Assembly: GCF_020177375.1 (NCBI RefSeq)
Contig: NZ_JAIWHV010000013.1
Location: 1 to 64,000 of the forward strand
Direction: 5' to 3'
Origin: Saliphagus infecundisoli
GTDB lineage: Archaea; Halobacteriota; Halobacteria; Halobacteriales; Natrialbaceae
DNA: 64,000 bases
The position numbers and the translations under genes were made by a program. This document shows positions 19,724 to 64,000 of the stretch, in pieces (position 1 is the stretch's first letter; each line of letters opens with the position of its first letter). The notes under the pieces were generated by a model. The model saw only the letters and a program-made list of their open reading frames with translations. It did not search any database and was not told the origin of the DNA.

Positions 19724-19763
19724 TATAGTCAACCATTAAACCCCTCGATTACGATAACCAAAC

Positions 19764-41237: not shown

Positions 41238-42032
41238 ATGGAGAGAACGGTACTCGTTATCGGAGCCCATCCCGACGACGCTGACATCCGCGCGGGCGGC
41301 TTCGCCTGCCGCTTGGCGCAGGCGGGCCACGAAGTCATCTTCGTCTCGATGACCGACGGGCGCGCAGGTCACCACGAACAGGGCGGGATCGAACTCGTCG
41401 AACGGAGGCGGGCCGAAGCCGCGGCCGCGGCCGACATCGCCGGCATCGATTACTGTATCCTCAAGGCCCCCGACGGCCGGCTCAGACCCACCCTAGAGCG
41501 TCGCGAGCGGTTGATCCGGCTGATCCGCCGGCTGTCGCCCGACCTCGTCCTGACTCACCGGCCCAACGACTACCACCCCGACCACCGCTACACCTCGCAG
41601 CTGGTCCGGGACGCAGCCTACATGGTCACCGGCCCAAACGTCTGTCCTGGGACGCCCGCCCTTGATTCGAACCCCGTCTTCGCGTACTTGCTTGATACCT
41701 TCGACCGACCCCACTCGTTCGACCCGGACGTCGTCATTCCAATCCCGCCTGACCTCGTGGATCGGAAGTATAAGATGCTCGACTGTCACGAGTCCCAGGT
41801 CTACGAGTGGCTGCCGTACAACGCGGGAATCATTGAGGAGGTCCCTGACGACCCCGACCGCCGCCGGGAGTGGCTCGAGACTGATCCTCTCGCCTCGTTC
41901 GCGGAGATGCAGGGGGCCGCCGATCGCCTCCGGGACAGATTGGAGGGAGACGTTGAGTACGCTGAGGCCTTCGAAATCTCGGAATACGGCGCCGAACTTG
42001 ACGACGAACTCACGGCTAATCTGTTCGAGTAG
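41238..42032 (+). CDS. PIG-L/LmbE-type N-acyl deacetylase
   Basis: 264 residues. Zinc motif A-H11-P-D13-D14, RRRAEAAAAADIAGI and the third zinc ligand region NDYHPDHRYTSQLVRDAAYM (H-x-D-H) are in place. The family hydrolyses N-acetyl groups from GlcNAc derivatives (GlcNAc-PI, bacillithiol or mycothiol precursors, diacetylchitobiose). The wider setting has GH20 and GH3 N-acetylhexosaminidases, so deacetylation of GlcNAc or its oligomers is the attractive inference. No signal peptide. The start codon ATG at 41238 directly precedes the conserved strand. Confidence 0.88.
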   Translation: MERTVLVIGAHPDDADIRAGGFACRLAQAGHEVIFVSMTDGRAGHHEQGGIELVERRRAEAAAAADIAGIDYCILKAPDGRLRPTLERRERLIRLIRRLSPDLVLTHRPNDYHPDHRYTSQLVRDAAYMVTGPNVCPGTPALDSNPVFAYLLDTFDRPHSFDPDVVIPIPPDLVDRKYKMLDCHESQVYEWLPYNAGIIEEVPDDPDRRREWLETDPLASFAEMQGAADRLRDRLEGDVEYAEAFEISEYGAELDDELTANLFE

Positions 42033-45953: not shown

Positions 45954-47129
45954 ATGACCGAGATCGAGGGACCACGGCTCGTGACTCGCGAAGAGTTCCC
46001 TGAGATGATGGCGCTGCTCGATCGCTACTTCGCTTACGAGCGCGGCGGCATGCAAGCCCGACTCCCGTTTGTCTATGACCCCGACCGGTCCGACCGCCAT
46101 GCAGTGATACTCGCTGACGGGGAGATCGTGAGCCACGTCGCGGCGGTCCCACAGATGCTCTCGACCGGCACCAGTGAAACCGTCGAGTGCTGGGGCATCA
46201 GCGGCGTCGCGACGGATCGGCGCTACCGGGGTGAGGAGTACATGACCGACCTCCTCGAGTTCTGGTTCGACAGGATGGACAACGCGGGGGCTCCCCTCTC
46301 TGACCTGAGCGGCAACCGACAGCGGTACGGTCACTTCGGCTACGAACTGGCCGGCAGCGAGTACGAGTACACAATCACCGCCCGATCGTTCGACGGCGAG
46401 CCCGAAGCCTCTCCCGCCGTCGAGGTCTACCGTGGTGAGGAGATGACCCTCAAGGATCTCGATCGAATCCACGGCGAGGAACCGTATCGCGCCGTCCGGG
46501 ACCGCGAGGGCGGCCGCGTAGTGTTCGGTCAACGGGGACTGGAGACGTTCGTGGTAGCCACCAGCGACGGGCCCGATGACGTCGTTCTCGACCCTGCCTA
46601 CCTATCGCTTTCACGTGAGAGCCGCTCCCGGACGGTTGAGGAGTTCGGCGGGAGCGCGGTCGGCCTCGAGACCCTCCTTGCCCATGTTCTCGCTATCCTC
46701 GATTTGAACGAGCTGTCGGTCCGGATGCCGCCCTGGCATAACCTTGAGCGGGTTCTGGCCCGCCACAGCCGCTTTTGGACTGCACGCCCTCACCGCAAGC
46801 TCCGGATCAACGATCTCCAGGCGCTGCTCTCTGATTTTGAGAAGCAACTCGAACAGCGATGGCTCGAGAGCGGACGAGCGGAGAAGGGATCGGTCACCCT
46901 CAAGCTTCCCGAGGGGGATTCCGTCCGGATCGCCTACAGTCCTGAGAAAATCTCCGTCGGTCCCGGCGAGCGTGAGAGCGAGAGAAAGGAAATCGAACGT
47001 GGCCGCCGGGAACTCGTGTCGTTGCTGTTCGGCCTTCCCGACCGCACCGCGTCGCTTCGCTCGGGAGATCCGTTCCTCGAGACGGCGCTCCCGCTACGAT
47101 ACTTCATCTGGCCGACCGAACACGTCTGA
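45954..47129 (+). CDS. GNAT-family N-acetyltransferase (Eis-like, two-domain)
   Basis: 391 residues. N-terminal GNAT fold (SHVAAVPQMLSTGTSETVEC, then the acetyl-CoA loop ISGVATDRRYRGEEYMTDLL) and a second half typical of Eis-type multi-domain acetyltransferases ending in a sterol-carrier-like domain (EKGSVTLKLPEGDSVRIAYS). Substrates of Eis-type enzymes are amines, including aminoglycosides and lysines; here it could act on an amino sugar. It stands on its own strand between decayed genes. Confidence 0.75.
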   Translation: MTEIEGPRLVTREEFPEMMALLDRYFAYERGGMQARLPFVYDPDRSDRHAVILADGEIVSHVAAVPQMLSTGTSETVECWGISGVATDRRYRGEEYMTDLLEFWFDRMDNAGAPLSDLSGNRQRYGHFGYELAGSEYEYTITARSFDGEPEASPAVEVYRGEEMTLKDLDRIHGEEPYRAVRDREGGRVVFGQRGLETFVVATSDGPDDVVLDPAYLSLSRESRSRTVEEFGGSAVGLETLLAHVLAILDLNELSVRMPPWHNLERVLARHSRFWTARPHRKLRINDLQALLSDFEKQLEQRWLESGRAEKGSVTLKLPEGDSVRIAYSPEKISVGPGERESERKEIERGRRELVSLLFGLPDRTASLRSGDPFLETALPLRYFIWPTEHV

Positions 47130-48192: not shown

Positions 48193-48269
48193 CGCCGGCG
48201 ATTTCCCCCCACTAACTTACCGGATCGGGTCCCCCAAGAGCCTTGATCTCCCGCTCGAAACGAGAGGAT

Positions 48270-49913
48270 ATGATCGATGAACACGCCGTTGACGAGCTCT
48301 CGATCGAGACAAAGATCGGACAACTCCTTCACATCGGGATCGGACTCGGACACTTTGAAACCGATACCGGGTGGCCTGCCGAGGAGATGGCGGACGTAGT
48401 CGACGAACTCCGGCCGGGCGCGGTCCGGATCTACGGGACTCATCGGGCCGGCCCCTACGCCATGGCGGAGTACACGAACTGCCTCCAGGAGTTGGCAGAC
48501 GGGACCGACCACGCCATCCCCCTGCTGCTCTCGGCGGATTGCGAGTACGGCACCGTCGATATCGTCGGCCACGGAACCCAAGCGTATCCCTCGCTGATGG
48601 GCCGGACGGCAACGGGCGATCCCGATCTCGCCCGCGAGGTCTCGGCGGCGATCGCCCGCGACGCATGCTCAATGGGTCTCTCGCTGACCCATCGGCCGGT
48701 CGCCGACGTCCATACTAACCCTGACAATCCCGTGATCGGCGTCCGCTCTCCCGGAACTGACCCCGCGACCGTCTCGCAGTACGCGACCGCCGCTCTCGAG
48801 GGGATCCACGACGTCGGAGGGATCGGAGTCGCGAAACACTTCCCCGGCCACGGCGATACCGAACTCGACTCCCACCACGAACTCCCCCATGTCACTGACG
48901 ACCGGGAGACGATAGAGAGAGTCCACCTCCCACCCTTCGAGGTACTGATCGAGGAGGGCATCGACTGTATCATGACCTCCCACGTCGTCGTGGATGCCAT
49001 CGACCCCGATCGGCCGGCGACGCTCTCCAAACCCGTGTTAACCGGGTTGCTTCGCGAGGACCTCGGCTTCGAGGGCGTCGTCGTCACCGACGCGATGATG
49101 ATGGACGCGGTCGCCGAGAACTACGGCGTCGGCGAGGCCGCCGTCCGCGCGGTCGCCGCGGGCGCAGACCTCGTCCTCACGGGCTACGTCCCCCACGAGG
49201 ACCTCCGGGAAACGCGCGACGCGCTCCTCGCCGCAGTGGAGGGCGGCGACCTCCCCGAATCGCGGATCGACCGCTCGGTCGAGCGGATCCTCGCGCTTAA
49301 GGAGCGTGCGGGCGCGACCGACCGGCGACGGGTCGATCCTGTCGAGGCCCTCGAGGTGACGGGAAGGGAGACCCACCGGTCGCTCGCCCGAGAGGCCTAC
49401 GAGCGCTCCGTGACCCTCCTCGCCGACGACGGCCTCCCGATCGGCGGGAACGACGCCGTCTTGCTGACCGGGGTCCGGGGGGTGGGCGCGCTCGAACCCC
49501 ACTTTGACCGGGCGTTCGGACCCGTCGTGACCTGCTCGCTGGCCCCCGACGGGACCCGAACATCCGCGAACTCGAAACCCGCCACGGAGCCCACAACTGA
49601 CGCGCTCCAGACGGTCCGGACGCTCGCCGCCGACGTCGACCGCGCCGTCGTGACGACCTACAGTCGGGAGGCATTCCCCGAGAGCCAGCGGCGGTTGGTC
49701 GAGAACGTCGCCGAGGAGGCGTCGACAACCGTCGTCTCGCTCGGCCTGCCGAACGAGTTTTCGGAGCTTTCGGGGGTCGGCTACCTCGGGACCTACCTTC
49801 AGGATCGCCTTGGATTGCCCGATCCCGTCCCCGACGCCGCCAGTCAGGCGATCGTCGGGACTCTCCGGGAGCCGCCGGCGGTTCGGGAGTCGTTGCCGAT
49901 CGGCGACCGGTAG
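48270..49913 (+). CDS. Glycoside hydrolase family 3, NagZ-like beta-N-acetylglucosaminidase
   Basis: 547 residues. The catalytic His/Asp loop of NagZ is present as KHFPGHGDTELDSH (residues 189-202), and the nucleophile is D274 in VVVTDAMMMDA. The NagZ-type loop with His acting as acid/base distinguishes it from beta-glucosidases. A C-terminal domain (from about 370) resembles the longer two-domain NagZ forms. No signal peptide, so probably cytoplasmic, acting on GlcNAc-containing oligosaccharides that have been imported. I choose the ATG at 48270 over an in-frame TTG 27 bases upstream. It ends two bases before the convergent peptidase gene. Confidence 0.9.
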   Translation: MIDEHAVDELSIETKIGQLLHIGIGLGHFETDTGWPAEEMADVVDELRPGAVRIYGTHRAGPYAMAEYTNCLQELADGTDHAIPLLLSADCEYGTVDIVGHGTQAYPSLMGRTATGDPDLAREVSAAIARDACSMGLSLTHRPVADVHTNPDNPVIGVRSPGTDPATVSQYATAALEGIHDVGGIGVAKHFPGHGDTELDSHHELPHVTDDRETIERVHLPPFEVLIEEGIDCIMTSHVVVDAIDPDRPATLSKPVLTGLLREDLGFEGVVVTDAMMMDAVAENYGVGEAAVRAVAAGADLVLTGYVPHEDLRETRDALLAAVEGGDLPESRIDRSVERILALKERAGATDRRRVDPVEALEVTGRETHRSLAREAYERSVTLLADDGLPIGGNDAVLLTGVRGVGALEPHFDRAFGPVVTCSLAPDGTRTSANSKPATEPTTDALQTVRTLAADVDRAVVTTYSREAFPESQRRLVENVAEEASTTVVSLGLPNEFSELSGVGYLGTYLQDRLGLPDPVPDAASQAIVGTLREPPAVRESLPIGDR

Positions 49914-49915
49914 TA

Positions 49916-51010
49916 TCAGGCCGTCCCGCCCTCTGTGCCGTCGAGAGCGTGCCGGAGAACGGCCTCGTAGAGCGCGAACTGGGCCTCGAGAATCCCCTCG
50001 TGGTCGATCTCCCCCGAATATCCGTCGGCGAGCCCGTGGGCGGACTCGTGGAGCAGGGGGAGGGTGCCACTCGTGTGGTGGGCGGCGCTCAGCAGGTTGA
50101 AGTACGGCGGCGGAGACCCGCTCTCGGCTGCGACCTCGATCGGATCGTACGCCGAGAGATCCTGTTCGTAGAGGGCTTCGTTGTACGACCGGTGGATCGC
50201 CCGGGCGTCGGCCTGGGCCTCGAGGGGGACGTAGGAGGTCCGGACGAACCCGGGCGGGTAGGCGTGGCTGTGAAGCGAGAGGGTGACGTCGGGGGCCTCG
50301 CGGCGGACGGCGTCGAGGATGGCGGGCGCCTCCGGCCCCATCGGGTCGAAGAACTCATCGTGCATCGGGTTAATCCCGTCGTCGTCGAAGTAACACCCGA
50401 GAAAGTCGACCTCGTCGCCGGTCATCGGATGGTGCCCCTTCGCGTCGGGGTAGCCGGTGAGCCGGTTGTCGCTCCGGGTGCCCTGGCCCCAGAACTCGAG
50501 GTCGGTGAGGGTCATTCCCGCAAGCGAGCGGGGCTCGAACCGTGCGAGTCCGTCGGGGTTGCCACAGGGGATGACGACGAGTCGACAGCGATCTGCGAGG
50601 ATCCGCAGTGTCGGCCGCTCGTTGTCTGCAAGATCCCGGCCCGTTTCGAGGACCGACAGCAGGTTACAGAGACCGGTCAGCCCCTCGACCTCGTGGCCGT
50701 GGACTGGCCCCAGAAGGAAGACGACTGGCCGGTCGCGCTCCCCTCGGTCGACGTAGCGGGTCGGGTCGCGGGCGGCGACCGCGGAGTTGTAGTTCGCCCG
50801 CCGGTCGCGGTCGGTCGACTCGCCGTAGGTGACGGCGTGGATCGGTCGGTCGCCGGGCGACCGGGCGAGTTCCTCGATTCGCCCGCGGTCGATGGCTGCC
50901 AGCTGATCGGTGACCCCCTTGCGGTCGCCGACCCAGAACTCGGGGAGGTCGCGGTCGGGAATCCGCTCGACGGCCTCCGCATGGGTCATGGTGTCCGTCT
51001 CCTCGCTCAT
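49916..51010 (-). CDS. M14-family zinc carboxypeptidase/amidase
   Basis: 364 residues. Zinc ligands H104-x2-E107 (VHGHEVEGL) and a third His in LSLHSHAYPPGFV; the catalytic Glu is in LLHESAHG. The family includes carboxypeptidase A-like enzymes, gamma-D-Glu-mDAP amidases (MpaA) and succinylglutamate desuccinylases. No signal peptide seen. It is convergent with NagZ-like GH3 and divergent from gamma-glutamyltransferase, which suggests processing of gamma-glutamyl-containing peptides, although that is inference. Confidence 0.8.
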   Translation of the reverse strand: MSEETDTMTHAEAVERIPDRDLPEFWVGDRKGVTDQLAAIDRGRIEELARSPGDRPIHAVTYGESTDRDRRANYNSAVAARDPTRYVDRGERDRPVVFLLGPVHGHEVEGLTGLCNLLSVLETGRDLADNERPTLRILADRCRLVVIPCGNPDGLARFEPRSLAGMTLTDLEFWGQGTRSDNRLTGYPDAKGHHPMTGDEVDFLGCYFDDDGINPMHDEFFDPMGPEAPAILDAVRREAPDVTLSLHSHAYPPGFVRTSYVPLEAQADARAIHRSYNEALYEQDLSAYDPIEVAAESGSPPPYFNLLSAAHHTSGTLPLLHESAHGLADGYSGEIDHEGILEAQFALYEAVLRHALDGTEGGTA

Positions 51011-51135
51011 GGGATCGATCGACGGAGCCGTTCGGGTTAAAGCTTCTCCAGCGGCCGGGAGGGCCGGTCGCCGACGACGTTCCGAACGAAATAACCAATA
51101 GTTTTAATGAGAGTCAGGGAGAGCTAGACGTTGCC

Positions 51136-53190
51136 ATGTCAGATACTGCCAGAGAAGAGAGCGGCGGGGACGAGTCTGAGAAGAGCGTCTCACGGGAGCC
51201 TGATCGGCGGCGGTTCATGCGGGGAACGGCCGTCGCGCTCGGGCTCTCGGGGGCCGGCGTCTCCGGGAGCGCGGCGGCCGAGGGAGACGAGAAGGACGAC
51301 GGCGAGGACGGCAGCGAGGGTTGGGAGGTCGAGTCCGTCTCCGACCCCGAGGGCGTGGTCTCGGCGTCCCACCCGATCGCCGCCGAGGTCGGCGCCGAAG
51401 TACTGGAATCGGGCGGCAACGCCTTCGACGCCGCGGCGGCGGTCCAGCTCGCGCTGACGGTCGTCGACCCCTACGGCTCCGGGCTCGGCGGCAGCGGGAT
51501 GCTTGTGGGGTACTCCGCGAGCGAGGACGGTCCGGTCACGCTGAACTGCCAGGCCCGCGCGCCGATCGACGCCTCCGTCGGGATGCGCTACGACGACGAG
51601 GGGAACCTGAAGCCGCCCGCCCAGCGTTCCTACGGCGGGATCTCGATCGGGACGCCCGGGACGCTGCGCGGGCTCGACGTCATGCTCAAGCGGTGGGGCA
51701 CCCGCTCGCTGGGCGACCTCGCGACCCGACCCAGAGAGATCGCCGCCGAGGGGTTCGAGCTCGACGAACGGGTCGCGAGCGTCCTCTCGGCGGTTGTCTG
51801 GCGGATGAACGACGCCGCCCTCGAGATCTGGGCGCCCGACGGCGAGCCCCTCGAGGCCGGCGACCTCGTCGTCCAGGAGGACCTCGCGGGGACGCTGTCG
51901 CTGATCGAGGAGGGAGGGATCGACCCCTTCTACCGGGGCGAGATCGGCGAGGCGATCGTCGACCTCGTCCAGGACGCGGGCGGGGTCATGGAGATGGCCG
52001 ACCTTCGGAGCTACCGTCCGACGATCGACCCGCCGACCCGGGTGACCTACGAGGATTCCCATCCGACGATCGGGAAGGCAGTCGACGTGCTCTCGACTCC
52101 CCCGCCGGTCGAAGGGGGTCTCGTCGTTCCTGGGATGCTGAAGATCATAGAGGGGATGGAGCTTCCGGACGATCCACTGTCGGCGACGCGCTACCACCGG
52201 ACGTGGGCCGCCCGTGCGACGATCGAGAACCCCATGATCTCGACGACGGGCGACCCTGAGTTCGTCGACGTCCCGGTTCGAGGAATCCTCTCGGACGACC
52301 TGATCGCGAGCCGCCGTGACCTGATCGACCCCGACGAGCGAAACCCCGACCTCCTGGGTGCCGAGAGCGACCCGTGGGCCCGCCAGCCTGGCGAGCCCTG
52401 GACGACGGACCCGCCCGTCGGCGTCGACGACGGGGACGTCCCCGGGGAGTTCGAGCCGCCGACGACCGAGGACACGACCCACTTCTCGGTCGCCGACGGC
52501 GAGGGCAACGTCGTCTCCTTCACCGGCACGCTCTCCTCGGGCTTCGGCACCGGTGCCGTGGTCCCCGGCTACGGCTTCTTCCTCAACAACTCGATCGCCC
52601 AGCTCGGCGAGACCGGCCCCGACCGCCTGGGCCCGCTCCGGCGGTACAACACCACCGCCGCGCCGACGCTCGTCCTCCGGGACGGGGAACCGTTCCTCAC
52701 GTGTGGCTCGCCCGGCGGCATCGTCATCTCCCAGGTCGTCGCCGACGTCCTCGTCAACGTCCTCGAGTACGGGATGAGCCTGGAGGAGGCCGTCGCCCAC
52801 CCGCGGATGTACGTCTTCACCGGCGAGTACGAGGCGGCGGTCCCCGAGGACACGATCGACGGGCTCGAGTCGATGGGGTACACGATGGCCGACGAGCCCA
52901 CGGGGCCGCTGGGCGACACGCAGATGGTCGCCGTCGACCGCGACGGCCCGATGGGCGTCTACGATCCCCGCCGGGGCGGCGGCGTCGTCGGCGCCAGCGG
53001 CGAGGACGTCGGCCGCCCGCCGCGTGGGCCCCCGGCGGACGTCCCCGGTAGGGGCCCGCCAGGGCTCGGCGAGGAGGACGACCATCCCGGCGGCCCGCCG
53101 GGCGAGGGCGGCGACCACCCCGGAAACGGGAACGATCCGCCGGGCCACGGCGGCGACCGTCCGGGCCGGGGAAACGGCGGCCCGCCCTGA
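51136..53190 (+). CDS. ggt: Secreted gamma-glutamyltransferase with Gly/Pro-rich tail
   Basis: 684 residues. Twin-arginine signal (DRRRFMRGTAVALGLSGAGV, residues about 23-42). The large subunit carries GGNAFDAAAAVQLALTVVDP and the small-subunit start is the Thr447 nucleophile in DTTHFSVADGEGNVVSF, with the oxyanion-loop region PGGIVISQVVADVLVNVLEY. Autocleavage before T447 would give the mature heterodimer. GGT hydrolyses or transfers gamma-glutamyl groups. The last about 57 residues are nearly all Gly, Pro, Asp, Arg and His (GPPGEGGDHPGNGNDPPGHG pattern), absent from normal GGT (about 580 residues). A TATA-like AGTTTTAATG lies at 51101-51110. Confidence 0.92.
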   Translation: MSDTAREESGGDESEKSVSREPDRRRFMRGTAVALGLSGAGVSGSAAAEGDEKDDGEDGSEGWEVESVSDPEGVVSASHPIAAEVGAEVLESGGNAFDAAAAVQLALTVVDPYGSGLGGSGMLVGYSASEDGPVTLNCQARAPIDASVGMRYDDEGNLKPPAQRSYGGISIGTPGTLRGLDVMLKRWGTRSLGDLATRPREIAAEGFELDERVASVLSAVVWRMNDAALEIWAPDGEPLEAGDLVVQEDLAGTLSLIEEGGIDPFYRGEIGEAIVDLVQDAGGVMEMADLRSYRPTIDPPTRVTYEDSHPTIGKAVDVLSTPPPVEGGLVVPGMLKIIEGMELPDDPLSATRYHRTWAARATIENPMISTTGDPEFVDVPVRGILSDDLIASRRDLIDPDERNPDLLGAESDPWARQPGEPWTTDPPVGVDDGDVPGEFEPPTTEDTTHFSVADGEGNVVSFTGTLSSGFGTGAVVPGYGFFLNNSIAQLGETGPDRLGPLRRYNTTAAPTLVLRDGEPFLTCGSPGGIVISQVVADVLVNVLEYGMSLEEAVAHPRMYVFTGEYEAAVPEDTIDGLESMGYTMADEPTGPLGDTQMVAVDRDGPMGVYDPRRGGGVVGASGEDVGRPPRGPPADVPGRGPPGLGEEDDHPGGPPGEGGDHPGNGNDPPGHGGDRPGRGNGGPP

Positions 53191-54615
53191 TCACGACGAG
53201 CCGGTCGGGTTCCAGGCTTCCCCGGCCTCCACCGGGAGCAGCCGATCGCCGTCGGTGAACCCTTCCGGCCGGCCCGCGAGCCGATCGACGAGCCGGTCGC
53301 GCCACGTCGGGAGTTCCTCGGAGCGCTCGCCGGCGAGGTTGCGGGTCTCGAGGGGGTCGTCCGCGAGGTCGAAGAGGAGTTCGTCGCCCGTCGTGGGGTG
53401 CCAGACGTACTTCGCGTCCTCGCTCACGAGGAACTGCGTCCCCGTCTTCGGGTCGTAGGTCGGCCCGTGTTCGCCGTGATAGTGAGAGCGCCACTCCGCG
53501 TCCCCCTCCATCAGCGGCCACAGCGACCGGCCGTCGACCGATCCGGGGACCTCGACGCCCGCCGCCTCGAGGATCGTCGGGAGGAGGTCCTCGAGCCCGA
53601 CCGGTCGGGGGACCTCCCGGCCCCTCGGACGCTCCACCCGGTCCGGGGGACGGACGATCAGGGGGACCCGGGCGGAGCCCTCGTAGGCGAAGGTCTTCCG
53701 CCAGAGGCCGTGGTCGCCGAGCATATCGCCGTGATCCGAGGCGAAGATCACGAGGGTATTCTCCAGATCGGCGGCCCGGAGCAGCCGCCCGATCTGGCGG
53801 TCGACGTGGGTCACCGAGCCGTAGTAGCCCACCCGGGCCCGGTGGACGACCTCGCGGGGGAGGTCCGCGAGCCAGGCGTTCGTCGACGGGTACGCCGGAA
53901 CCCGATCGCCGTATATTCCCCTCGCCCAGTCGCCGACCGGCGGGTCGGGGATCTCCCGCCCGTCGTAGTGCTCCCAGGCGGCCCGCGGCGGGTCGTAGGG
54001 CTGGTGGGGCCGGACGTAGGAGACGTAGTGGAAGAACGGCCGCGTCGGGTCCCGGTCGTCGAGGAACTCGATCGCCCGATCGGTGGTCCAGACCGTCGGG
54101 TGGGCCTGCTCGTCTAAGTGCCAGGGCCGGGCGTCCCAGGAGTTTCGCCCGACGCCGTGGCCGATCTCGTCGGCGCCTTCGCGTTCGCGGGCGAGCCACC
54201 GGGAGTAGTCGTCCTCGCGTCCCGAGAGGCCGGCGTGGAGGACCGTCTCCTCGAACCCGATCCGGTTGCCGGCCGGAATCGCGTGGGTCTTCCCGGTCAG
54301 TCGCGTCCGGTAGCCCGCCTCCCGGAGGAGGCCGGCCAGCGTCGGCTCGAACGTCCAGGGTCGCCCGTGGTAGGTCGTCGCGTCGACGTTCGCGGGGCGT
54401 CGCCCGGTCCAGAGACACCGCCTGGCGGGGATCGACGACGGTGCCGGGGTGTACGCCCGGGTGAACATCGCCCCCTCGCCGACGAGCGAGTCGAGCGTCG
54501 GCGTGTGGACCAGCGGGTCGCCGTGGGCGTCCCGGGGACTCGCCGGATCGGCCCCGATCGCGCTCCCCCGGTGCTGGTCGGTCGTGATCAACAGCACGTT
54601 CGGTCGATCGGCCAT
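53191..54615 (-). CDS. Sulfatase, Ser-type (SIPAR)
   Basis: 474 residues. Metal site NVLLITTDQHRGSAIG (D13, Q14), and the modification motif is S61-I-P-A-R with Ser where cysteine-type sulfatases have Cys. Ser-type motifs are converted to formylglycine by radical-SAM maturases (anSME), not by FGE. FASDHGDMLGDHGLWRKTFA and the C-terminal YDPKTGTQFLVSEDAKYVWH complete the fold. It lies downstream of the heparinase-like lyase gene on the same strand, 68 bp apart, and probably removes sulfate from the glycan substrate. No maturase is seen in the window. No signal peptide; likely intracellular. Confidence 0.87.
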   Translation of the reverse strand: MADRPNVLLITTDQHRGSAIGADPASPRDAHGDPLVHTPTLDSLVGEGAMFTRAYTPAPSSIPARRCLWTGRRPANVDATTYHGRPWTFEPTLAGLLREAGYRTRLTGKTHAIPAGNRIGFEETVLHAGLSGREDDYSRWLAREREGADEIGHGVGRNSWDARPWHLDEQAHPTVWTTDRAIEFLDDRDPTRPFFHYVSYVRPHQPYDPPRAAWEHYDGREIPDPPVGDWARGIYGDRVPAYPSTNAWLADLPREVVHRARVGYYGSVTHVDRQIGRLLRAADLENTLVIFASDHGDMLGDHGLWRKTFAYEGSARVPLIVRPPDRVERPRGREVPRPVGLEDLLPTILEAAGVEVPGSVDGRSLWPLMEGDAEWRSHYHGEHGPTYDPKTGTQFLVSEDAKYVWHPTTGDELLFDLADDPLETRNLAGERSEELPTWRDRLVDRLAGRPEGFTDGDRLLPVEAGEAWNPTGSS

Positions 54616-54683
54616 ACGCCGGCTACGACGGATTCCGCCTTACGTCTGGTGCCCGTTCGAAGGCCCCGGAGGGGGGCGCCGAT

Positions 54684-57600
54684 CTACTCGACCTCGACGG
54701 TATCGGCGTAGACGTACTCCTCCCCGCCGATCGTCGCGAGGAGGGTGAACTCGTACGTTCCAGCCTCCCCGTAGGTGTGCCGGAGGTAGTGTCCGGAGGC
54801 CTCGTAGCCATCGCCGAACTCCCACTCGGCGTCCCAGACGTCATCGCCGACGATCTCGAAGACGTACTCCCGATCGGCGAGCCAGTCCTCCCGGCGGACG
54901 TCGTACACCTCCTCGGCGGGCGGCCCGTCGCCGCCGTCGCTCGGTCCTCCCTCGACCTCGATCGTCTCGGTGTAGGTGTACTCCTCGCCGTCGATCGTCG
55001 CGGTGAGGGTAACCTCGTACGTGCCGTCCTCCTCGTAGGTATGCCGGACGTAATGGCCCGACGCACGGGTGTCGTCGCCGAACTCCCAGTCGGCCGCCCA
55101 GACGTCGTTGCCGACGATCTCGAGGATGTACTCTCGCTCGTCGAGCCAGTGTTCCTGGCGAACGTCGAGCACCTCCGAAACCGGCGGCCGCTCGCCGCCG
55201 GGCGACCACGAGGTCGCGAGCGGAACCCGGACGTCGTCGCCCTCGCCGATGACGTAGTGGTAGCCCCCGTCCTCGAGTTCGTCGGGATCGACGAAGTCCC
55301 GGGTGAAGGTCTTCTTCCCGACGTCGAACGCGAGGGTGTTCCCGCTCGACTCGACTCCCTCGATCGGGTAGGCGCCGTTGCCCCGGCCGCGCTGGTCGCG
55401 CTCGTCGATGCGTTCTTTCGGGTCCGGATCTCCCTGGTGGGGATTCGTATCGTCGTTGTCGACGTAGACGAAGCCGGCGTGGCGGTCGACGTGACGGCGG
55501 TCTCCATCGGCCTGGACCTCGAGTTCGTTGTCTAGGGTCATCCCCTTCGTGAAGGCGTCGACGGTCCCGCGGACCTCGTTCGCGTTCTCCTGGATCAACT
55601 GGCCGTCGGTGGTGGGCTGGAGTCGGGTCCCGTCGTGGACGTACGCGTACTCGGGCTCCCCGTCCTCGACCGAATAGAGCCCGAAGAACCCCCTGAACTG
55701 GAAGGTGTCGTCGACGGTGAGCGTCGCGTCGCTATCGAGCGAACGGACCACGTAGTCCGTGCGTCCGTTCGAGAGGGTCACCTTCAGCGCGTGGCCCTCG
55801 CCGCCCGTGACGTCGGCCTCCTCGATCGACTCGACGGCGCGGTCGCCCTCGTAGTGCTCGATCACGGACGTGAACGTGGTCTCCATCTCCGACCCGCTCC
55901 GGTCGAGGAAGGCGTATCTCAGATCGTCCTCCGGCGCGGACCCGCCGCTGCTGTCGGGCGGATGGGCGTCGGCGAGGGCGACCTCGTCGAAGTCGCCGAT
56001 GCTGGTCAGCCGAAGGTGGACCTCCTCGGCGTCGTCGTCCCGGAAGTTGTAGTGGTCCTCGACGTCCCAGTCGACGGTGACCTTCTCCGACGGATCGTCG
56101 TCGCGCTCGACGTTATCGAAGTAGTTCATCCCCGAGCCCGCAGAGCGGGGATCCCGAGTGCTATCGTAGTCGTCGTCGCCGTAGGGAACGTCCGGACCGG
56201 CGAGCGTTCCGCCCTCCTGGGCCTCGAGATCGAGTCCCTCGGTGGTAACTCCGGCTTTCGTCGCGTGGAAGCCGTATCGGTGGTGGTCGCCGCCGGCGAC
56301 GTCGAAGAAGTCGACGGCGTAGGAGCGTTCCTGGCCGACGGTGATCAGGGCGGTCGTCCGACGGTACTCCTCCGTGGCGTCGTAGCAGTGTGGCGCCTCG
56401 ACGTCGATCAGGTCGACCCGCTCGTCGTCCCCCTCGAAGTGGCGAGGATTGCCGACCCAGTGGTGTTTCTGGCCGCGTTCGTCGACCATCACCGTGTTGT
56501 GACTGATCGTGTTGTCGGTGTACATCCGGCTCGGGGGATGGTCGCCGGTTTCGGCCGGATACCCGACGTCCCGGGCGAGGTCCATTTCGTTGGCCGCGAC
56601 GCCGATCTGGAGCGTGTCCCGGTGGGCGTGGGAGGTGCCACCGCCCTCGACGCCGTTGCGGCCGTAATACATCCACACCGCGCGCTTGACGTTCCCGAGG
56701 GTGACCTTCTCCTTTCGCTCGCGCTCCCGTTCGTCGAGCAGCGTCAGGTAGTACAGCGCCATGCTGTAGCCGCCCGCGTCGTCGTTCTGTCCGACACAGT
56801 CCCAGCGCATCGTGGAGGTCCCCTCGGGGAGGTCTCGGACGTACGTCAGGACCTCCCGACCGCTGCCGTCGGCCATGAAGTCGACCGTGTCGACGTACTC
56901 GTCGTCGATGTAAAGTTCGTAGATGCCGTACGTGCCGACGAACAGCGCCTCGATCTCGAGTTCGTACTCGCCTGCCTCCTCGACGTCGAACTCGAAGCTC
57001 CACCACTCGCCCGCCTCGTCGGCCTCGAACTGGATGGCCTCGTCGAAGCTGTCGTCGACCGCCGCGGAGGCGTCGGCGAACAGGTCGGAGGTGTCGTAGG
57101 TCACGCCGAACGAGCCGGCGGTGTAGTTCTCCCCGTCGCGAAGCGCCGCGAAGCCGAAGCCCGCGAGGTTCGTACTCGGGACGTCGAGGGGGCCCTCGGC
57201 GTCGATGACCGACTGGATCTCGTCGGCGAGGCCCTCGGGTTCGGCGTCGTAGATCGATCCCCGCATCCCCGCCGTCGAGTAGCCGTTCGAGTAGTGCCAC
57301 AACTGGGCGAACTCCGGGTCGCCCGTCACCTCGTAGCCGGCTTCGATCGCGCTCGTGCTCCACTCGGTTCCCGACGGATAGTGGGTGTCGCCCAGCGCGG
57401 GCGAAAACGAGTCCAATAGGAGCAGGTCAGCGTTGATCTTCAGGGCGTTCTGGAACTTCGGATGCTGGTAGAGGTTCGCCCCGTCGAACCCGTCGTACCC
57501 CTGGAGGTTCTCGGCGACCTGGCGGATTGAGGACATCCGGATCCGGTTGTAGCCGAGCGATCCCTCGTGCCAGTAGCCGTCCCGATCCGCCTCGTCTACG

Positions 57601-58943
57601 ATCGGCGCCAGCACGTTCCCGCCGGTCGTGTACCAGTTCTCGGGCTCCTCGTTCCAGACGTCGCCGTCGAAGACCTCCTCGCCCGGCTGGAACACCCACT
57701 CGAGGGCCTCGCGGGTGTAGCCGGCCTCGCGCGTGTCGTCCTGGACGCGCGCCGAGATCGCGACCGCCGAGAGCTGTCCCCGTCCGGGGGCCATCTGTGA
57801 ATCCTTGGCCGCGGGAAGCATCTCCTGAACGTAGTTCTCCTCGATGTTCTCGTGGACCGCCACGGCCGAGTCCTTTCCCTCCAGTCCGGGATACTCCTCG
57901 GTCTTTCCGTCGAGGAACTCGACGACCGCGTCCGCGACGTCCTGGTCGTCCAGGGCGGGGAAGAAGGCGTCGTAGGCGACGAGCAGGTTGCGGGCCAGAT
58001 TCCCCTCCCAGTGGGAGCCAATGATCCGTCCGGTCTGTCGGCCGCCGTGGTTGTTCCAGAAGCCGTCGGCGTTTCGCTGGTAGTCCGCGATGGTCATCTC
58101 GGGGTAGACGTCGGCGATACGGTCCAGCATCACCAGCCCGGCGATCGCGTACTCGGGGTCCTCGGCGAGCAGGTAGCCGTCGGACAACGAGGCCAGAATC
58201 CGTCTGATGCCGCCGGGTCGCCAGACGAACCAGTGGTTGTAGTAGGCGACGAGGTTCCAGCGGTTGCCCTCGCCCAGACCGAGGTCGTCCTCGCCGTCGA
58301 TCCACCCCCAGCCGTCGTCTACGCCCCAGCCCTCGCCCATCTCGGGGTGTTCCTCGTTGACCAGCAGCGAGTCGTCCGCGAGGTCGGGGTCGAACATCCC
58401 GCGGTCGTCCAGCCCGCTCTCGCGATAGGCCCCGAAGTCGTTCGTCGGGAGGACCAGGTTCCCCTCGCCGTGGGGGTCGGAGACCGTCGTCTCGATCTTC
58501 CAGGGACGGTCGGTTCCCGGGCTACTGATCCCTCCCAGGACGTTCCGCTCGGCCGCGATGCCGCCAGCACGGGGAACCTTTTGAGACGTCACCAGACTCC
58601 AGAGCCGGTCTAAGTCTCGGTCGTATGCGTCGAGGCGGCCCTCGGCCCCGCTGACCGCGCCGTCGCGTTCGTTCTCCGCCCAGTCGTAGCGGTCGATGTT
58701 CTGCTGGGCGTTCTCGCGGTCCGCTTCGGTCCACATCGTCGGCCGCGTCTTGCGGTGGTACTGCCCGTCACCTTCCTGGGTGGCCGTTCCGGTTGGCGAG
58801 AGCAGTCCGCCGATCACACCGACACCGGTCGTCGCGAGCATCGACCGCCGCGACACGTCGAACCGCCCCGTCCGATCGAGGACCGAACTCAGCCCCTCCC
58901 GGGACCAGTCGTTGCCGTTTCCGTCGGTATCGTTGGGTGCCAT
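54684..58943 (-). CDS. Secreted heparinase II/III-like polysaccharide lyase with CBM-like and two PKD-like domains
   Basis: 1419 residues. Twin-arginine signal SRRSMLATTGVGVIGGLLSP at about 30-50. The N-terminal 600 residues form an alpha/alpha toroid (WNLVAYYNHWFVWRPGGIRR, GRQTGRIIGSHWEGNLARNL). A beta-sandwich like CBM6/35 (WWSFEFDVEEAGEYELEIEA) lies at about 630-730. The heparinase II/III C-terminal beta part follows, with GGTSHAHRDTLQIGVAANEM and DNTISHNTVMVDERGQKHHW. The C terminus holds two tandem PKD-like repeats of about 75 residues (WEFGDD...GHYVRHTYEEDGTYEVTL; WEFGDG...GHYLRHTYGEAGTYEFTL). Lyases of this type cleave uronic-acid glycans by beta-elimination. Tyr/His catalytic residues are plausible but not proven. 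A TATA box at 58966-58976 precedes it. Confidence 0.8.
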   Translation of the reverse strand: MAPNDTDGNGNDWSREGLSSVLDRTGRFDVSRRSMLATTGVGVIGGLLSPTGTATQEGDGQYHRKTRPTMWTEADRENAQQNIDRYDWAENERDGAVSGAEGRLDAYDRDLDRLWSLVTSQKVPRAGGIAAERNVLGGISSPGTDRPWKIETTVSDPHGEGNLVLPTNDFGAYRESGLDDRGMFDPDLADDSLLVNEEHPEMGEGWGVDDGWGWIDGEDDLGLGEGNRWNLVAYYNHWFVWRPGGIRRILASLSDGYLLAEDPEYAIAGLVMLDRIADVYPEMTIADYQRNADGFWNNHGGRQTGRIIGSHWEGNLARNLLVAYDAFFPALDDQDVADAVVEFLDGKTEEYPGLEGKDSAVAVHENIEENYVQEMLPAAKDSQMAPGRGQLSAVAISARVQDDTREAGYTREALEWVFQPGEEVFDGDVWNEEPENWYTTGGNVLAPIVDEADRDGYWHEGSLGYNRIRMSSIRQVAENLQGYDGFDGANLYQHPKFQNALKINADLLLLDSFSPALGDTHYPSGTEWSTSAIEAGYEVTGDPEFAQLWHYSNGYSTAGMRGSIYDAEPEGLADEIQSVIDAEGPLDVPSTNLAGFGFAALRDGENYTAGSFGVTYDTSDLFADASAAVDDSFDEAIQFEADEAGEWWSFEFDVEEAGEYELEIEALFVGTYGIYELYIDDEYVDTVDFMADGSGREVLTYVRDLPEGTSTMRWDCVGQNDDAGGYSMALYYLTLLDERERERKEKVTLGNVKRAVWMYYGRNGVEGGGTSHAHRDTLQIGVAANEMDLARDVGYPAETGDHPPSRMYTDNTISHNTVMVDERGQKHHWVGNPRHFEGDDERVDLIDVEAPHCYDATEEYRRTTALITVGQERSYAVDFFDVAGGDHHRYGFHATKAGVTTEGLDLEAQEGGTLAGPDVPYGDDDYDSTRDPRSAGSGMNYFDNVERDDDPSEKVTVDWDVEDHYNFRDDDAEEVHLRLTSIGDFDEVALADAHPPDSSGGSAPEDDLRYAFLDRSGSEMETTFTSVIEHYEGDRAVESIEEADVTGGEGHALKVTLSNGRTDYVVRSLDSDATLTVDDTFQFRGFFGLYSVEDGEPEYAYVHDGTRLQPTTDGQLIQENANEVRGTVDAFTKGMTLDNELEVQADGDRRHVDRHAGFVYVDNDDTNPHQGDPDPKERIDERDQRGRGNGAYPIEGVESSGNTLAFDVGKKTFTRDFVDPDELEDGGYHYVIGEGDDVRVPLATSWSPGGERPPVSEVLDVRQEHWLDEREYILEIVGNDVWAADWEFGDDTRASGHYVRHTYEEDGTYEVTLTATIDGEEYTYTETIEVEGGPSDGGDGPPAEEVYDVRREDWLADREYVFEIVGDDVWDAEWEFGDGYEASGHYLRHTYGEAGTYEFTLLATIGGEEYVYADTVEVE

Positions 58944-58965
58944 CCGTTCACACGATACACCCGGG

Positions 58966-58976
58966 AATAATATATC
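58966..58976 (-). promoter_or_regulatory. TATA box of the heparinase-like gene
   Basis: On the minus strand GATATATTATT is centred about 28 bp upstream of the ATG at 58943, which predicts a leaderless transcript. This separates it from the GH20 gene 160 bp upstream; the two may still be co-transcribed but a promoter of its own is present. Confidence 0.5.
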
Positions 58977-59104
58977 TTTTGGAAATTACTACTAACACCG
59001 AGCGATGAACGTCGTCGGAGCGAGCGGAAACGGCGATCACGGAGGGTCCCGACTGGCGTCTCCGCTACGAACATCCGACGGACGCCGCGACCTCCGACCC
59101 GCTT

Positions 59105-60832
59105 TCAGGGCCGGTCGAGCACGCCACGCCCGTCGCGCTCGGCGACCTCGAGAAGCCACTCGAGGGCATCGACGTACGCCGACGCGGTCTCGGGGTACAC
59201 CACCCGCCCCGAATCGCGAAGCCCGGTCAACGTCTCGATCGTTTCCTCGTACTCCGAGCGGGCCTCCGTTGGCGAGAGATCGGGAAGCGAGCGATCCGGA
59301 TGGGCCGGCGGGTCGGGATCCGAGCGCTTCCAGTTCGTCGGGAGGATCAGCCCACCGAGCTCCCGGTAGACGTCTCCCCCGTCGGGGACGAACGGGCCGA
59401 GCGCGTGACGGGTCACCGTGGACGAGATCGCGGATCCACCCTCGACGGGGTCGGGGTTCCAGAGCCGGTCGGCGAACAGGGGAATCGCCGACGGGAGCGC
59501 CCGCTCGAAATACTGCCGTCGCTCCTCGCTCGAGGGCTCCCAGGCGGCGAGTTCGCCGCCGCCGACCATCGACTCCCGTCCCTCGGGGACGCTCGGGCGG
59601 CGCCGGGGCGCCCAGCCGCGCATGTACTCCTCCCCGATCCACCCCCGGACGTAGGCCGCGTGGACGTAGGAGTTGACCACCTCGAACCCCTCCTCGACGA
59701 ACCGCGCCATGCTACAGCCATCGACGGGTCCGCGGCCCGGGGCGGCGACGCGCCAGAACTGGATCAGAATATTTCTGGGGAGGTCCGGCGACTCCGAGAC
59801 GTCGATCTGGTCGTTCCAGAGCATGGTCCGCCGGTCGTGGCTCTCGAGGAAGCCGTGGAGCCGGCGGACGAACGAATAGAAGTGGTCGGTCGGCGTCTCG
59901 AAGCCCTCGGCGGCCATCCGCTCCCGGCAGTCCGCACACTCCTCCCAGGAGTGGCCGTGCATCTCCCACTCGTCGCCTCCGAGGTGGACGACCTCGAAGG
60001 GAAACACCTCGATCACCTCCTCCAAGAGGGTCTCGAGGAACTCGTAGCTCTCCTCGCTCCCGATACAGATCGTCCGGTCGGAGGGCTCGCCGTCCGGAAC
60101 GGTACACCGGAGTTCGGGATGGCGCTCGAGAACGTGTTCTGCGTGGGCCGGGACGTCGATCTCGGGGACGATCTCGATCCCGCGTCGGCCGGCGTACGCG
60201 ACCAGCTCCTCGACGTCGTCCGGCGAGTACGCCGGGCGCTCGCTCCCGTCGAGATCGCGGTTCAGCTCCGGGTAGGCCGTAGACTCGAGGGCGTACCCCT
60301 CGTCGTCGAGCAGGTGGAGGTGGAGTCGGTTCAGCTTCGCCCGGGCGGCCTGGTCGATCCGCCGTTTGACCCGTTCGACGGAGAGAAAGCCCCGAGCGGG
60401 GTCGAGCATGAGCCCGCGCCAGTTGGTCTCCGGCCAGTCGTGGATTTTCCCTGCCGGAAGCGTCCACCTCTCTCCGTCCCGGACGAGGGCCGTCACGAGC
60501 GACTGGCAACCGTGGCGGAGCCCGGCAGTTGTCGCGGACCGGATCTCGACGGCGTCGGCATCCGGATCCGCACGGAGGACGTATCCCTCCGGGTCGTCGA
60601 ACCGCTCGCTTGGCTTCTTAATGATCTCCAGTTGGACGTCGGCCCCCTCGACTCCCGCTTCGATTCGGCGGGAAGGTTCGGTCGTCTCCCGCTTGAGGAG
60701 ATCCCCGAGAAGCGATGCGGCCGGATCGACGTCGCCACCGCTCGAGGAAATACGGAACGGCGGTTCGATCCGGACGACGTCCGACCCCCTCCGAACGTGG
60801 CGCGGCCTCGGCAGGACGGGCGGCTCGGTCAT
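59105..60832 (-). CDS. Glycoside hydrolase family 20 beta-N-acetylhexosaminidase
   Basis: 575 residues. The catalytic D287-E288 pair in VVHLGGDEWEMHGHSW is diagnostic of GH20, which uses substrate-assisted catalysis on terminal GlcNAc/GalNAc. An N-terminal GH20b domain (residues 1-130), the barrel entry NWRGLMLDPARGFLSVERVK and IEIVPEIDVPAHAEHVLERH are present. No signal peptide, so probably intracellular. The ATG at 60832 is chosen as the first that starts the known domain; an in-frame upstream ATG at 60958 adds 42 residues of unrelated, AT-rich-coded sequence. It precedes the lyase and sulfatase genes on the same strand. Confidence 0.92.
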   Translation of the reverse strand: MTEPPVLPRPRHVRRGSDVVRIEPPFRISSSGGDVDPAASLLGDLLKRETTEPSRRIEAGVEGADVQLEIIKKPSERFDDPEGYVLRADPDADAVEIRSATTAGLRHGCQSLVTALVRDGERWTLPAGKIHDWPETNWRGLMLDPARGFLSVERVKRRIDQAARAKLNRLHLHLLDDEGYALESTAYPELNRDLDGSERPAYSPDDVEELVAYAGRRGIEIVPEIDVPAHAEHVLERHPELRCTVPDGEPSDRTICIGSEESYEFLETLLEEVIEVFPFEVVHLGGDEWEMHGHSWEECADCRERMAAEGFETPTDHFYSFVRRLHGFLESHDRRTMLWNDQIDVSESPDLPRNILIQFWRVAAPGRGPVDGCSMARFVEEGFEVVNSYVHAAYVRGWIGEEYMRGWAPRRRPSVPEGRESMVGGGELAAWEPSSEERRQYFERALPSAIPLFADRLWNPDPVEGGSAISSTVTRHALGPFVPDGGDVYRELGGLILPTNWKRSDPDPPAHPDRSLPDLSPTEARSEYEETIETLTGLRDSGRVVYPETASAYVDALEWLLEVAERDGRGVLDRP

Positions 60833-61722: not shown

Positions 61723-62845
61723 GCCTTGTTTTGCCGCTGATTAACGGCAGCTTCAGAGGCTCTCACAGCAAGATTCCGTCAGGCTCACCAGGATTTGGAC
61801 GCCGTCTGGCGATATGGTATCGCTCAGACGGCTGGCGCGGATGTGTCGAGACCTTGCCAAACAGCACGTTGACGATCCGGACGTACCCGCCGCGCCCGAG
61901 GGCGCGGACGGGTACGCCGAGTGGGCACAGATCGCGTTGATTCTGTTCCGTATCGAACTCGAGAAGAGCCTTCGCGAGACTGAGGATTACCTTGACGAGA
62001 TGCCCGGCGTCCTCGCCGAGTTTGACCTCGATGAGGCACCGCACTACAGTTCGCTCTGCCGGTGGGAACAAGAGTATCGGATGCGCGAACTCCGCCGCCT
62101 GCTCCGCGCTTCGGCGGAGCAGGCAGGCTGGAGCGGAGAAGCGGCCATTGACGCGAGTGGCTTCCAGCGCGATCAAACCAGTCACCACTATCGCGACCGC
62201 GCGAACTACTCGTTCCAGTCGATGAAGACAACGATCTTGATCGACGTGCACTCGCTGGCGATCAAGGACGTTCATTACACGACGAAGAAGGCCTGGGACG
62301 GTCATATTGGGATGCAGGTCTTCCGCCGGAACGCGGAAGACCTGTGCGTGATGTCTGCTGACGCGAACTACTCGTGGAGCGACCTCCGTGAGGAGTGTCG
62401 CTCCGAATCAACGCGACCGTTGATCAAGCACAGAGAACAGACACCGTTACAGAAGGCCCACAACGCCCGGATGAACGAGGACTACAACCAGCGCTGGATG
62501 AGTGAAACAGGCTTCTCGCAGTTGAAAGAGGACGACGGCGAGAAGTTACGCTCCCGGAGTTGGCACGGCCAATTCCGGGAGCTCACACGGAAGTGTATCG
62601 TGCATAACCTCACGCAGGCGGCGAGTTAGGGCTCGCCGCCTGCTCTCTTTCTCCGGGCGTATCCGGGAGAGACATCGCCGCCGTCACCGAACCAAGAGAC
62701 CAAGATACCATAGTTCTGACTCTTCAGCACGCATCAGTAGCGACCGCTACTACATCTTCTGATCCCGAAATCCCGTCTCTAACGCCGTGAACGTATGAAT
62801 GACCGGCCTTACCTCGACGCAGTCATGCGATTCAACAAGGCAAAA
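61723..62845 (+). mobile_element. Probable IS5-family element with uncertain ends
   Basis: The transposase gene below must lie in an element of about 1.1 kb. Candidate ends are TGCCTTGTT at 61723-61731 and AACAAGGCA at 62834-62842, which are inverted, and CACTA occurs just outside both (61718-61722, 62846-62850). The outer bases do not align perfectly, so the boundaries are tentative. It appears to have inserted into the 3' end of the decayed transposase. Confidence 0.4.
61814..62629 (+). CDS. IS5-family transposase (haloarchaeal)
   Basis: 271 residues. DDE motifs: AAIDASGFQRDQTSHHYRDR (first Asp), VMSADANYSWSDLRE (second) and the Glu of WMSETGFSQLKEDDGEKLRS, with the Y-(x2)-R-(x3)-E-like arrangement modified. 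The order and length fit the IS5 family in haloarchaea. The frame is intact. It ends at a TAG in an arginine/glycine-coding stretch near the right end of the element. Confidence 0.88.
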   Translation: MVSLRRLARMCRDLAKQHVDDPDVPAAPEGADGYAEWAQIALILFRIELEKSLRETEDYLDEMPGVLAEFDLDEAPHYSSLCRWEQEYRMRELRRLLRASAEQAGWSGEAAIDASGFQRDQTSHHYRDRANYSFQSMKTTILIDVHSLAIKDVHYTTKKAWDGHIGMQVFRRNAEDLCVMSADANYSWSDLREECRSESTRPLIKHREQTPLQKAHNARMNEDYNQRWMSETGFSQLKEDDGEKLRSRSWHGQFRELTRKCIVHNLTQAAS

Positions 62846-62924: not shown

Positions 62925-64000
62925 TTACTGGGGTGAGATGAGCCCGCGCTTTACGGCACGGTAGGCGCCTCGGTAGGCCTCCCAGTCCTGGTTGACCTCG
63001 AACTCCCACTCGTCGGTCTTTCCCCACGAGCCGTTGATTTGCTCGTACATGTCGATCCCAGGGAGATAGAAATTCCAGACCCAACTGAACGTCTCGGCGA
63101 ACTGTAGGTTCTCTTCATCGGACTGGGCAGTACTCCACTCTTGGTAGCGATTGTAGAGATTAATCTCCTGAGTAGACCCCGAAAGATCTTCTTGGCCGAC
63201 CTCTTCTGGAATCTCGACGACGAGCTCCTTCCCGTTGTACGGCGACCGCTCCTCGCCGTTCTCGATCGCGTCAACGATGACAGCTTGTTCGCCCAGGTCG
63301 TTGCCGGCCTTGTGGGTCGGCCGGAAGAACGAAGACGGGTGTGCGGCCAGCGACCCGTGGCTAAATATTGACAGGTCAAAGTCGATGCTGTCCTCGGTCC
63401 GGTCATTGTATGCGGCACCCTCGAGGGAACTCAGGTTCACTTCGAACCCAAACTGCGAGAGTTGGTCGGTGATCGTCCGAGCAGGGTTCGACTCCCGCTG
63501 GGGGATCACGAACTCCAGGGAAACCTGCTCCCCGTCGGGCCCGAGCCAGGCGTCGCCATCCTGTTCATAGCCCTCCTCCTGAAGCAGTTCCGCCGCGCCA
63601 CTCTCATCGCCTTGGACGGGATACTCGATAAAGTCGCTCACGTAATCGCCGAGCCACTCGTTGGTCACATTTTCGGTGAGACCGGTCTGGAGCGTCCGGG
63701 GCGTCGTTTCGCTCGATTCGTTCCCGGAGATGTTCTCGAGGCTGAGGGCGTGGATGACTGCGCGTCGGAAGTTCAGGTTCCGGGTGTGTTTCGATCCAGG
63801 GCCCTGCATCTGGAACTCGAGCTTTCGCATGAACGTGTCCTGGTACTCGGCTATCGTCTCGGCGTTGTCCGGAGTGCTATCTCCAAGCCAGTTTGCCAGC
63901 GTCGAATAGCCGAAGTCGTACTCGCCGCCCATGATATTCTGGGCGACGGCCTCGTCGGCCGCAAGCTCATAGTCGAGCCGGTCGATGTTGATCTGGTCGG
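62925..64000 (-). CDS. Family-5 (oligopeptide/oligosaccharide) ABC solute-binding protein, cut by the right edge
   Basis: The C-terminal 358 residues, running off the right edge. It reads DFGYSTLANWLGDSTPDNAE and NLNFRRAVIHALSLENISGN, the SBP-bac-5 pattern of a ligand-domain helix (R.A...A.d...i), then GAAELLQEEGYEQDGDAWLG and FGFEVNLSSLEGAAYNDRTE, with a C-terminal half typical of DppA/OppA-type proteins. The family binds oligopeptides and, in haloarchaea and others, oligosaccharides. The position beside the GH20 and lyase cluster suggests glycan oligomers or muropeptide-like ligands; this is inference. The signal peptide and permease genes lie beyond the window. Confidence 0.85.
   Translation of the reverse strand, partial: DQINIDRLDYELAADEAVAQNIMGGEYDFGYSTLANWLGDSTPDNAETIAEYQDTFMRKLEFQMQGPGSKHTRNLNFRRAVIHALSLENISGNESSETTPRTLQTGLTENVTNEWLGDYVSDFIEYPVQGDESGAAELLQEEGYEQDGDAWLGPDGEQVSLEFVIPQRESNPARTITDQLSQFGFEVNLSSLEGAAYNDRTEDSIDFDLSIFSHGSLAAHPSSFFRPTHKAGNDLGEQAVIVDAIENGEERSPYNGKELVVEIPEEVGQEDLSGSTQEINLYNRYQEWSTAQSDEENLQFAETFSWVWNFYLPGIDMYEQINGSWGKTDEWEFEVNQDWEAYRGAYRAVKRGLISPQ

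Follow-up and report, generated by a model that had tools for sequence, protein, structure and literature searches.

The window considered here is the whole analysed stretch of DNA, positions 1 to 64,000 of contig NZ_JAIWHV010000013.1 (C4) of Saliphagus infecundisoli, and belongs to a Natrialbaceae genome of 4.53 Mb that is 99.8% complete. Three of its genes follow one another on the minus strand, transcribed in the order GH20 β-N-acetylhexosaminidase (59105-60832), heparinase II/III-like lyase (54684-58943) and Ser-type sulfatase-family protein (53191-54615), with intergenic gaps of 161 bp (GH20/lyase) and 68 bp (lyase/sulfatase). All three score above their Pfam cut-offs, and the single orientation described in an earlier note on this DNA is borne out. 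On balance, haloarchaea probably use this type of locus to exploit an acidic, hexosamine-containing, probably sulfated glycan, and the one in the window is the second of two copies, with slight erosion.

The GH20 protein (575 aa) matches Glyco_hydro_20 (PF00728) at 4.6e-62, with 210.8 bits vs a cut-off of 22.3, and GH20b at 6e-14. The active-site Asp-Glu pair is kept (GGDE in the translation), and the nearest solved structure is the GH20 enzyme 4pys (E 1.1e-47). Its N-terminus, MTEPPVLP, is identical in the homologous locus on contig C33 of the same genome. No signal peptide is evident by eye in either the GH20 or the sulfatase sequence.

The lyase (1419 aa, minus strand) matches Hepar_II_III_C (PF07940) at 1.8e-7, with 31.4 bits vs a cut-off of 24, and the same family is matched by all 24 lyase homologues. 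A twin-arginine motif, SRRSMLATTG, lies close to the N-terminus, and the protein is predicted to be Tat-type secreted. Between the toroid and the β domain a CBM35-like β-sandwich is inserted (about aa 630-745; 56709-57056), recognized by a profile match to the MiXBM structure 7ehg (E 1e-11) and by Foldseek to the same entry (TM 0.79 on target); Pfam CBM_35 is found in 5 of the 24 members. Two C-terminal PKD domains follow (PF18911, 1.6e-16, two stretches; 54687-55196), which are missing in most relatives, where the protein stops near aa 1250.

An AlphaFold2 model of residues 57-1252, built from the 24-sequence alignment (mean pLDDT 78.6), has as its top Foldseek match in the PDB the PL40 ulvan lyase Uly1040 (9vtk; TM 0.68 on target), followed by PL17, PL39 and PL15 alginate lyases and then by heparinases II and III. 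The sequence-profile ranking agrees (PL17 AlgL17 6e-12, PL40 3e-10). In Uly1040, the residues of interest are His485, His487, Tyr305, Asp358 and the carboxylate-neutralizing pair Asn245-Trp246 (PMC12915356). Equivalences to these were set by motif and spacing rather than by superposed coordinates: Tyr465 (57549-57551) corresponds to the catalytic acid Tyr305 and is Tyr in 23/24 homologues; Asp519 (57387-57389) corresponds by spacing to Asp358, with 19 D and 4 N among the 24; and His772-x-His774 (56622-56630) corresponds to the base His485 and the metal ligand His487, each present in 23/24. Thus, the residue check that the earlier note had proposed finds the acid, the base and the base-activating residues in the alignment, while the neutralizing pair is not conserved. 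At the corresponding alignment columns, 387-390, the main clade has mostly G/D/E, R/S, G and Q/G, and distant members retain G-N-F-G-x-H-Q.

The protein therefore resembles Uly1040 in its (α/α) toroid plus β-sheet domain and in the matching spacing of His-x-His, Tyr and Asp, and differs from it by the CBM35-like insert and PKD tail, by the unconserved Asn-Trp pair and by the absence of an ulvan gene set. Membership in PL40 is rejected, both on that pair and on an identity of 13% in the Foldseek alignment vs the >30% family level used in PMC12915356. With the PL17 alginate lyases (9irq, 4nei) it shares a profile match across the catalytic β domain (E 6e-12), but the overall identity of 11-14% is too low for membership, and the extra domain and the hexosaminidase context set it apart. 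Judged from the model and the alignment, lyase activity is its most likely function, without demonstrated membership in any PL family. In one paralogue (G115:C1:2483125-2486895; L075:3128-6895) the HxH histidines are replaced by R and Y, and that protein is probably no longer a lyase.

The region C4 42.5-70.1 kb corresponds, in inverse order, to C33 15.4-48.4 kb. The C33 locus is the fuller one and the window locus the derived, slightly eroded one: C33 carries an additional tandem lyase (61% identical) with no equivalent on C4, together with the Opp/Dpp importer, gamma-glutamyltranspeptidase (GGT), M14 peptidase, GH3, GNAT, TIM-barrel and DHDPS-family genes. The surrounding super-locus also holds OngB-like, FAH and DgaE-like genes, the DgaE-like pyridoxal phosphate (PLP) gene lying at 83.5 kb. 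The two copies are 86% identical for GH20 and 93% for the sulfatase, and pairwise dN/dS (nonsynonymous over synonymous rate) is 0.17 for the lyase, 0.22 for GH20, 0.23 for the sulfatase and 0.04-0.11 for the importer. Since these values are well below 1 and the core genes are free of internal stops, those on C4 and those on C33 appear to be functional alike, and the possibility of a decaying pseudogene copy is rejected for them. The glycosidase-like TIM-barrel gene of C4 (44659-45693, minus strand), whose N-terminus is shorter than that of the C33 copy in the alignment, is likely decaying; an AlphaFold2 model of the C33 copy (pLDDT 71) leads by Foldseek to GH42/PgaB-like barrels, which is generically glycosidase-like only.

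The sulfatase-family protein (474 aa, minus strand) matches PF00884 (1e-46) and SGSH_C (4e-15), and has both the S1 sulfatase fold and the C/S-x-P-x-R signature, here S61-I-P-A-R. The "Ser-type" label given from the sequence is literally correct: the active site reads PAPS-S61-IPARR, with Ser61 (54433-54435, within PSSIPARRC) at the formylglycine position, which is Cys in all sampled sister sequences. The remaining motifs, PAR, SDHGDMLGDH and GKTH, are kept. Among family relatives of 54-59% identity, 13/13 have Cys at this site (PSCIPARRSLLTG or close variants), whereas both own copies and that of Halovivax read PSSIPARRCLWTG. The Halomontanus and Haladaptatus plasmid sulfatases, likewise inside lyase loci, carry the same Ser motif, which is invariant across two families. 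When the motif columns are excluded from the tree, the Ser sequences are still monophyletic (support 97/95). Their sister group consists of Cys-type sequences from Haloarcula, Halocatena and G019, so that a single Cys-to-Ser change suffices; chance or lineage noise is rejected on this basis. In Haloarcula marina (L150:1365-7452), such a Cys-type sister adjoins a PL8 protein named as an uncertain hyaluronate lyase in PMC13260240. The Ser-type proteins of Halovivax sp. KZCA124 (L109) and Halomontanus rarus (L146) are near-identical (0.004 changes per site), which reflects either the same lineage under two names or a recent transfer. The own genome has >25 sulfatase-family genes; the best 20 comprise 10 Cys-type genes, the 2 Ser copies and 8 without the signature Arg, mostly with Thr there. 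Such Arg-less proteins (several in G000; L088, L094-L099) have Thr at the formylglycine position in most cases (PWTLPSH type) and are presumably phospho- or other hydrolases.

FGE converts Cys only, while anSME converts Ser or Cys (PMC3920027). FGE is present in the own genome, and anSME (TIGR03942) gives no match there, is not detected in Halovivax and exceeds the cut-off in 0/125 family genomes. Because FGE is Cys-specific and anSME was not detected, the conserved Ser is a real puzzle and not a reading error. One explanation, which concerns this gene alone and is compatible with any substrate, is that the protein is a conserved non-sulfatase or an inactive homologue; the glycan then need not be sulfated. 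The Cys-to-Ser change on one branch, the lack of an anSME match in the genome and the Cys-only action of FGE agree with it, but the purifying selection (dN/dS 0.23), the retained motifs and the invariance of the Ser motif in two families do not, so that it is a serious possibility somewhat short of even. A comparable, tentative weight is given to the opposite proposal, namely an active Ser-type sulfatase in at least two families, derived from a Cys-type ancestor and working without anSME (through a new aerobic maturase or an unmodified Ser), which would serve an archaeal acidic-glycan locus opened by an undescribed lyase family.

Lyase homologues spanning most of the protein occur in 12/125 Natrialbaceae genomes and, across the class, in 16 of the 392 genomes sampled, including Haladaptatus and other families. 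Several are plasmid-borne (Natronococcus, Natrinema, Halomontanus, Natrononativus, Haladaptatus), mostly annotated as "heparinase II/III family protein", and more distant ones are found in an Opitutia metagenome-assembled genome and in Krasilnikoviella flava. The locus context was compared in 11 Natrialbaceae genomes. In 11/11 the lyase occurs together with GH20 and Opp/Dpp-type genes, and GNAT is present as well; a sulfatase-superfamily gene is present in 10/11, GH3 in 6/11 and GGT in four. Gfo/Idh/MocA oxidoreductases and sugar-isomerase-like TIM barrels occur in most, and a DgaE-like PLP enzyme in 10/11, in addition to that on C33 in the own genome; OngB-like and FAH genes are likewise found in other genomes' loci. 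In Halomontanus the order importer-lyase-GH20-arylsulfatase is kept in the same orientation, and the Haladaptatus loci have a mannonate dehydratase gene, of uronate catabolism, and no GH20 within the stretch seen. The claim of a conserved glycan-utilization locus is supported: it encodes a multidomain lyase with a predicted export signal, a sulfatase-family enzyme, and GH20 and GH3 as its two exo-hexosaminidases. Use of algal polyuronate (ulvan or alginate) would match the closest solved relatives of the lyase (PL40 and PL17), the sulfatase and the BNR_4 proteins seen in some loci. It is very unlikely, taking into account that two exo-hexosaminidases and amino-sugar catabolic genes would have no role on these polymers, that no rhamnose pathway gene is recognized in the loci, and that the identity to PL40/PL17 is only 11-14%.

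A further possibility is a true glycosaminoglycan (GAG) locus, as the earlier note had labelled it, in which the lyase cuts chondroitin, hyaluronan or heparan, the sulfatase takes O-sulfates, and GH20 and GH3 take GalNAc/GlcNAc. The lyase superfamily does contain the PL12, PL21 and PL33 GAG lyases, hexosaminidases and sulfatase are co-located, and a relative of the sulfatase adjoins a PL8 lyase. Moreover, other haloarchaea are proven to grow on GAGs: a 2026 study (PMC13260240) reported hyaluronan and chondroitin as growth substrates and plasmid-encoded PL8, GH88 and GH154, so that archaeal GAG use is no longer as little explored as had been assumed. The loci of those Natronoarchaeum and Haloarcula H-hyl strains share with the present one a secreted lyase, a sulfatase, an ABC importer and often a plasmid location, but the proven set is PL8, GH88 and GH154, as opposed to a heparinase II/III-like lyase, GH20 and NagZ-like GH3 with no GH88 in the locus. 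GH88, the unsaturated-uronyl hydrolase, is absent from every locus seen and from 8/12 carrier genomes (none over cut-off); the only own GH88 lies on C75 among unrelated genes. A PL8 search of the 125 genomes gave no match, but no control matched either, and the absence was dropped as evidence. The structural ranking, with PL40 and PL17 ahead of the heparinases, and the missing GH88 weaken a plain GAG locus; together with the failure to identify a maturase for the Ser-type sulfatase they speak against the label, and GAG use by this locus appears unlikely.

Between GH3 and the sulfatase (49916-53190) lie a GGT gene (51136-53190, plus strand; PF01019, 8e-107) and a gene for an M14-type zinc carboxypeptidase homologue (49916-51010, minus strand; PF00246, 5e-8), which places gamma-glutamyl chemistry inside a glycan locus. 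GGT (family F23) is found in the lyase loci of four carrier genomes (the own genome, G090, G095 and G100), and relatives of the M14 peptidase on C33 and upstream in G113. These genes could mean that the locus scavenges or remodels glycans of the haloarchaeal envelope or extracellular matter. Examples would be sulfated exopolysaccharides rich in uronate, or the Natronococcus wall of glycosylated poly-gamma-glutamine; GGT and M14 would cut the gamma-glutamyl part. In line with this, GGT stands beside the lyase locus in the own genome, two Natronococcus-group genomes and Natrononativus, M14 homologues occur, and the importer is peptide-type; the nature of the Natronococcus wall polymer is taken from PMC4243693. 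Nevertheless, most loci have no GGT and nearly all no M14, Opp-type importers transport oligosaccharides too, and the consulted part of that source does not describe the wall polymer as sulfated. This explanation is rather unlikely, although less so than the GAG one.

The other neighbours predicted from the sequence are confirmed by Pfam as GH3, PIG-L and DHDPS-type (DapA-type) genes. GH3 (48243-49913, plus strand; PF00933, 3.9e-73) is NagZ-like with the motif KHFPGHGDTELDSHHELP, but its 137 bits against NCBIfam NagZ are under the cut-off of 207; its family (F18) occurs in 7 loci. The PIG-L deacetylase (41238-42032, plus strand; PF02585, 2.6e-31; family F22) belongs to the conserved locus of other genomes. 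The DHDPS-family aldolase/dehydratase (43305-44240, plus strand; PF00701) is nearest to 5-dehydro-4-deoxyglucarate dehydratase and under every curated NCBIfam cut-off, and a GNAT acetyltransferase lies at 45954-47129 (plus strand; PF13527, 6e-19; family F6). Two zinc sugar dehydrogenases at 38-41 kb had also been assigned to the locus; the genes are real but have no counterpart in the loci of other genomes, and their membership is rejected. An IS5-family transposase (61814-62629, plus strand; NF033579, 8e-66) is inserted between GH20 and the substrate-binding protein, at a gap relative to the C33 copy. The Opp/Dpp-type substrate-binding protein (62925-64000, minus strand) runs beyond the window end, and its cut form scores 32.0 bits for PF00496, just below the cut-off of 32.4; the permeases and ATPase of the importer continue on C4 to about 70.0 kb, outside the window.

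Returning to the favoured interpretation, a utilization locus for an acidic, hexosamine-containing glycan, several observations weigh against it. The main clade of lyases does not keep the neutralizing pair, and no maturase able to convert Ser61 was found in the own genome, so the sulfatase may not be matured to formylglycine. With no GH88 in any locus seen and none over cut-off in 8/12 carriers, the fate of the lyase product is unexplained; substitution by the glycosidase-like TIM barrel or an oxidoreductase is speculation. Finally, GGT and the M14 peptidase are not accounted for by a pure polysaccharide substrate. On the other side, such a glycan would be consistent with export of the lyase, uptake of oligosaccharides and exo-hexosaminidases acting in the cytoplasm. 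Starting from what was observed, namely which genes are present, their synteny and duplication, the catalytic residues retained and the purifying selection, we infer every reaction and the substrate as follows. The Tat-exported lyase would be anchored on its substrate through the CBM35-like and PKD domains and would break uronate linkages by β-elimination, with His772 as base and Tyr465 as acid. The Opp/Dpp-type ABC importer would bring in the oligosaccharides, which the sulfatase-family enzyme, GH20 and the NagZ-like GH3 would trim in the cytoplasm. In the full locus, oxidoreductases, the PIG-L deacetylase, a D-aminoacylase/OngB-type deacetylase, a DgaE-type ammonia lyase and a FAH-family hydrolase would then direct amino sugars into keto-deoxy-acid catabolism.

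By analogy, the OngB-like, DgaE-like and FAH genes suggest keto-deoxy acids as the end point, a route demonstrated in bacteria that oxidize chitin (PMC9537276); for Natrarchaeobius it has been proposed (PMC12343721). Like the chitin-oxidation ong pathway, the locus combines GH20, an OngB-type deacetylase and a PLP enzyme yielding a keto-deoxy acid, but here the PLP enzyme is DgaE/SelA-like and a lyase and a sulfatase are added; since the deacylase of the locus is matched better by D-aminoacylases than by OngB, this step is only suggestive. The Natrarchaeobius chitin clusters share haloarchaeal GH20/GH3, a CE14 (PIG-L) deacetylase and a DgaE-like enzyme, with chitinases in place of the lyase and sulfatase.

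Elsewhere in the window, two more Cys-type sulfatase-superfamily genes (12755-14308 and 14632-16188) stand beside a sugar ABC transporter (16362-20900) as a second sulfoester-related cluster. An Eco57I-type restriction-modification methylase lies at 31625-33922, and three FAD/Fe-S dehydrogenase-type subunits with a FGGY kinase at 894-7424 form a GlpABC plus GlpK-like arrangement.

No paper on a heparinase II/III-like haloarchaeal locus was found in the literature. Besides the PL8 route published in 2026, the locus points to another, separate route, based on a different lyase, through which haloarchaea of several families may feed on acidic hexosamine glycans. Furthermore, the Cys-to-Ser switch, with FGE present and anSME undetected, offers a direct test of whether and how an aerobic archaeon matures a serine-type sulfatase.

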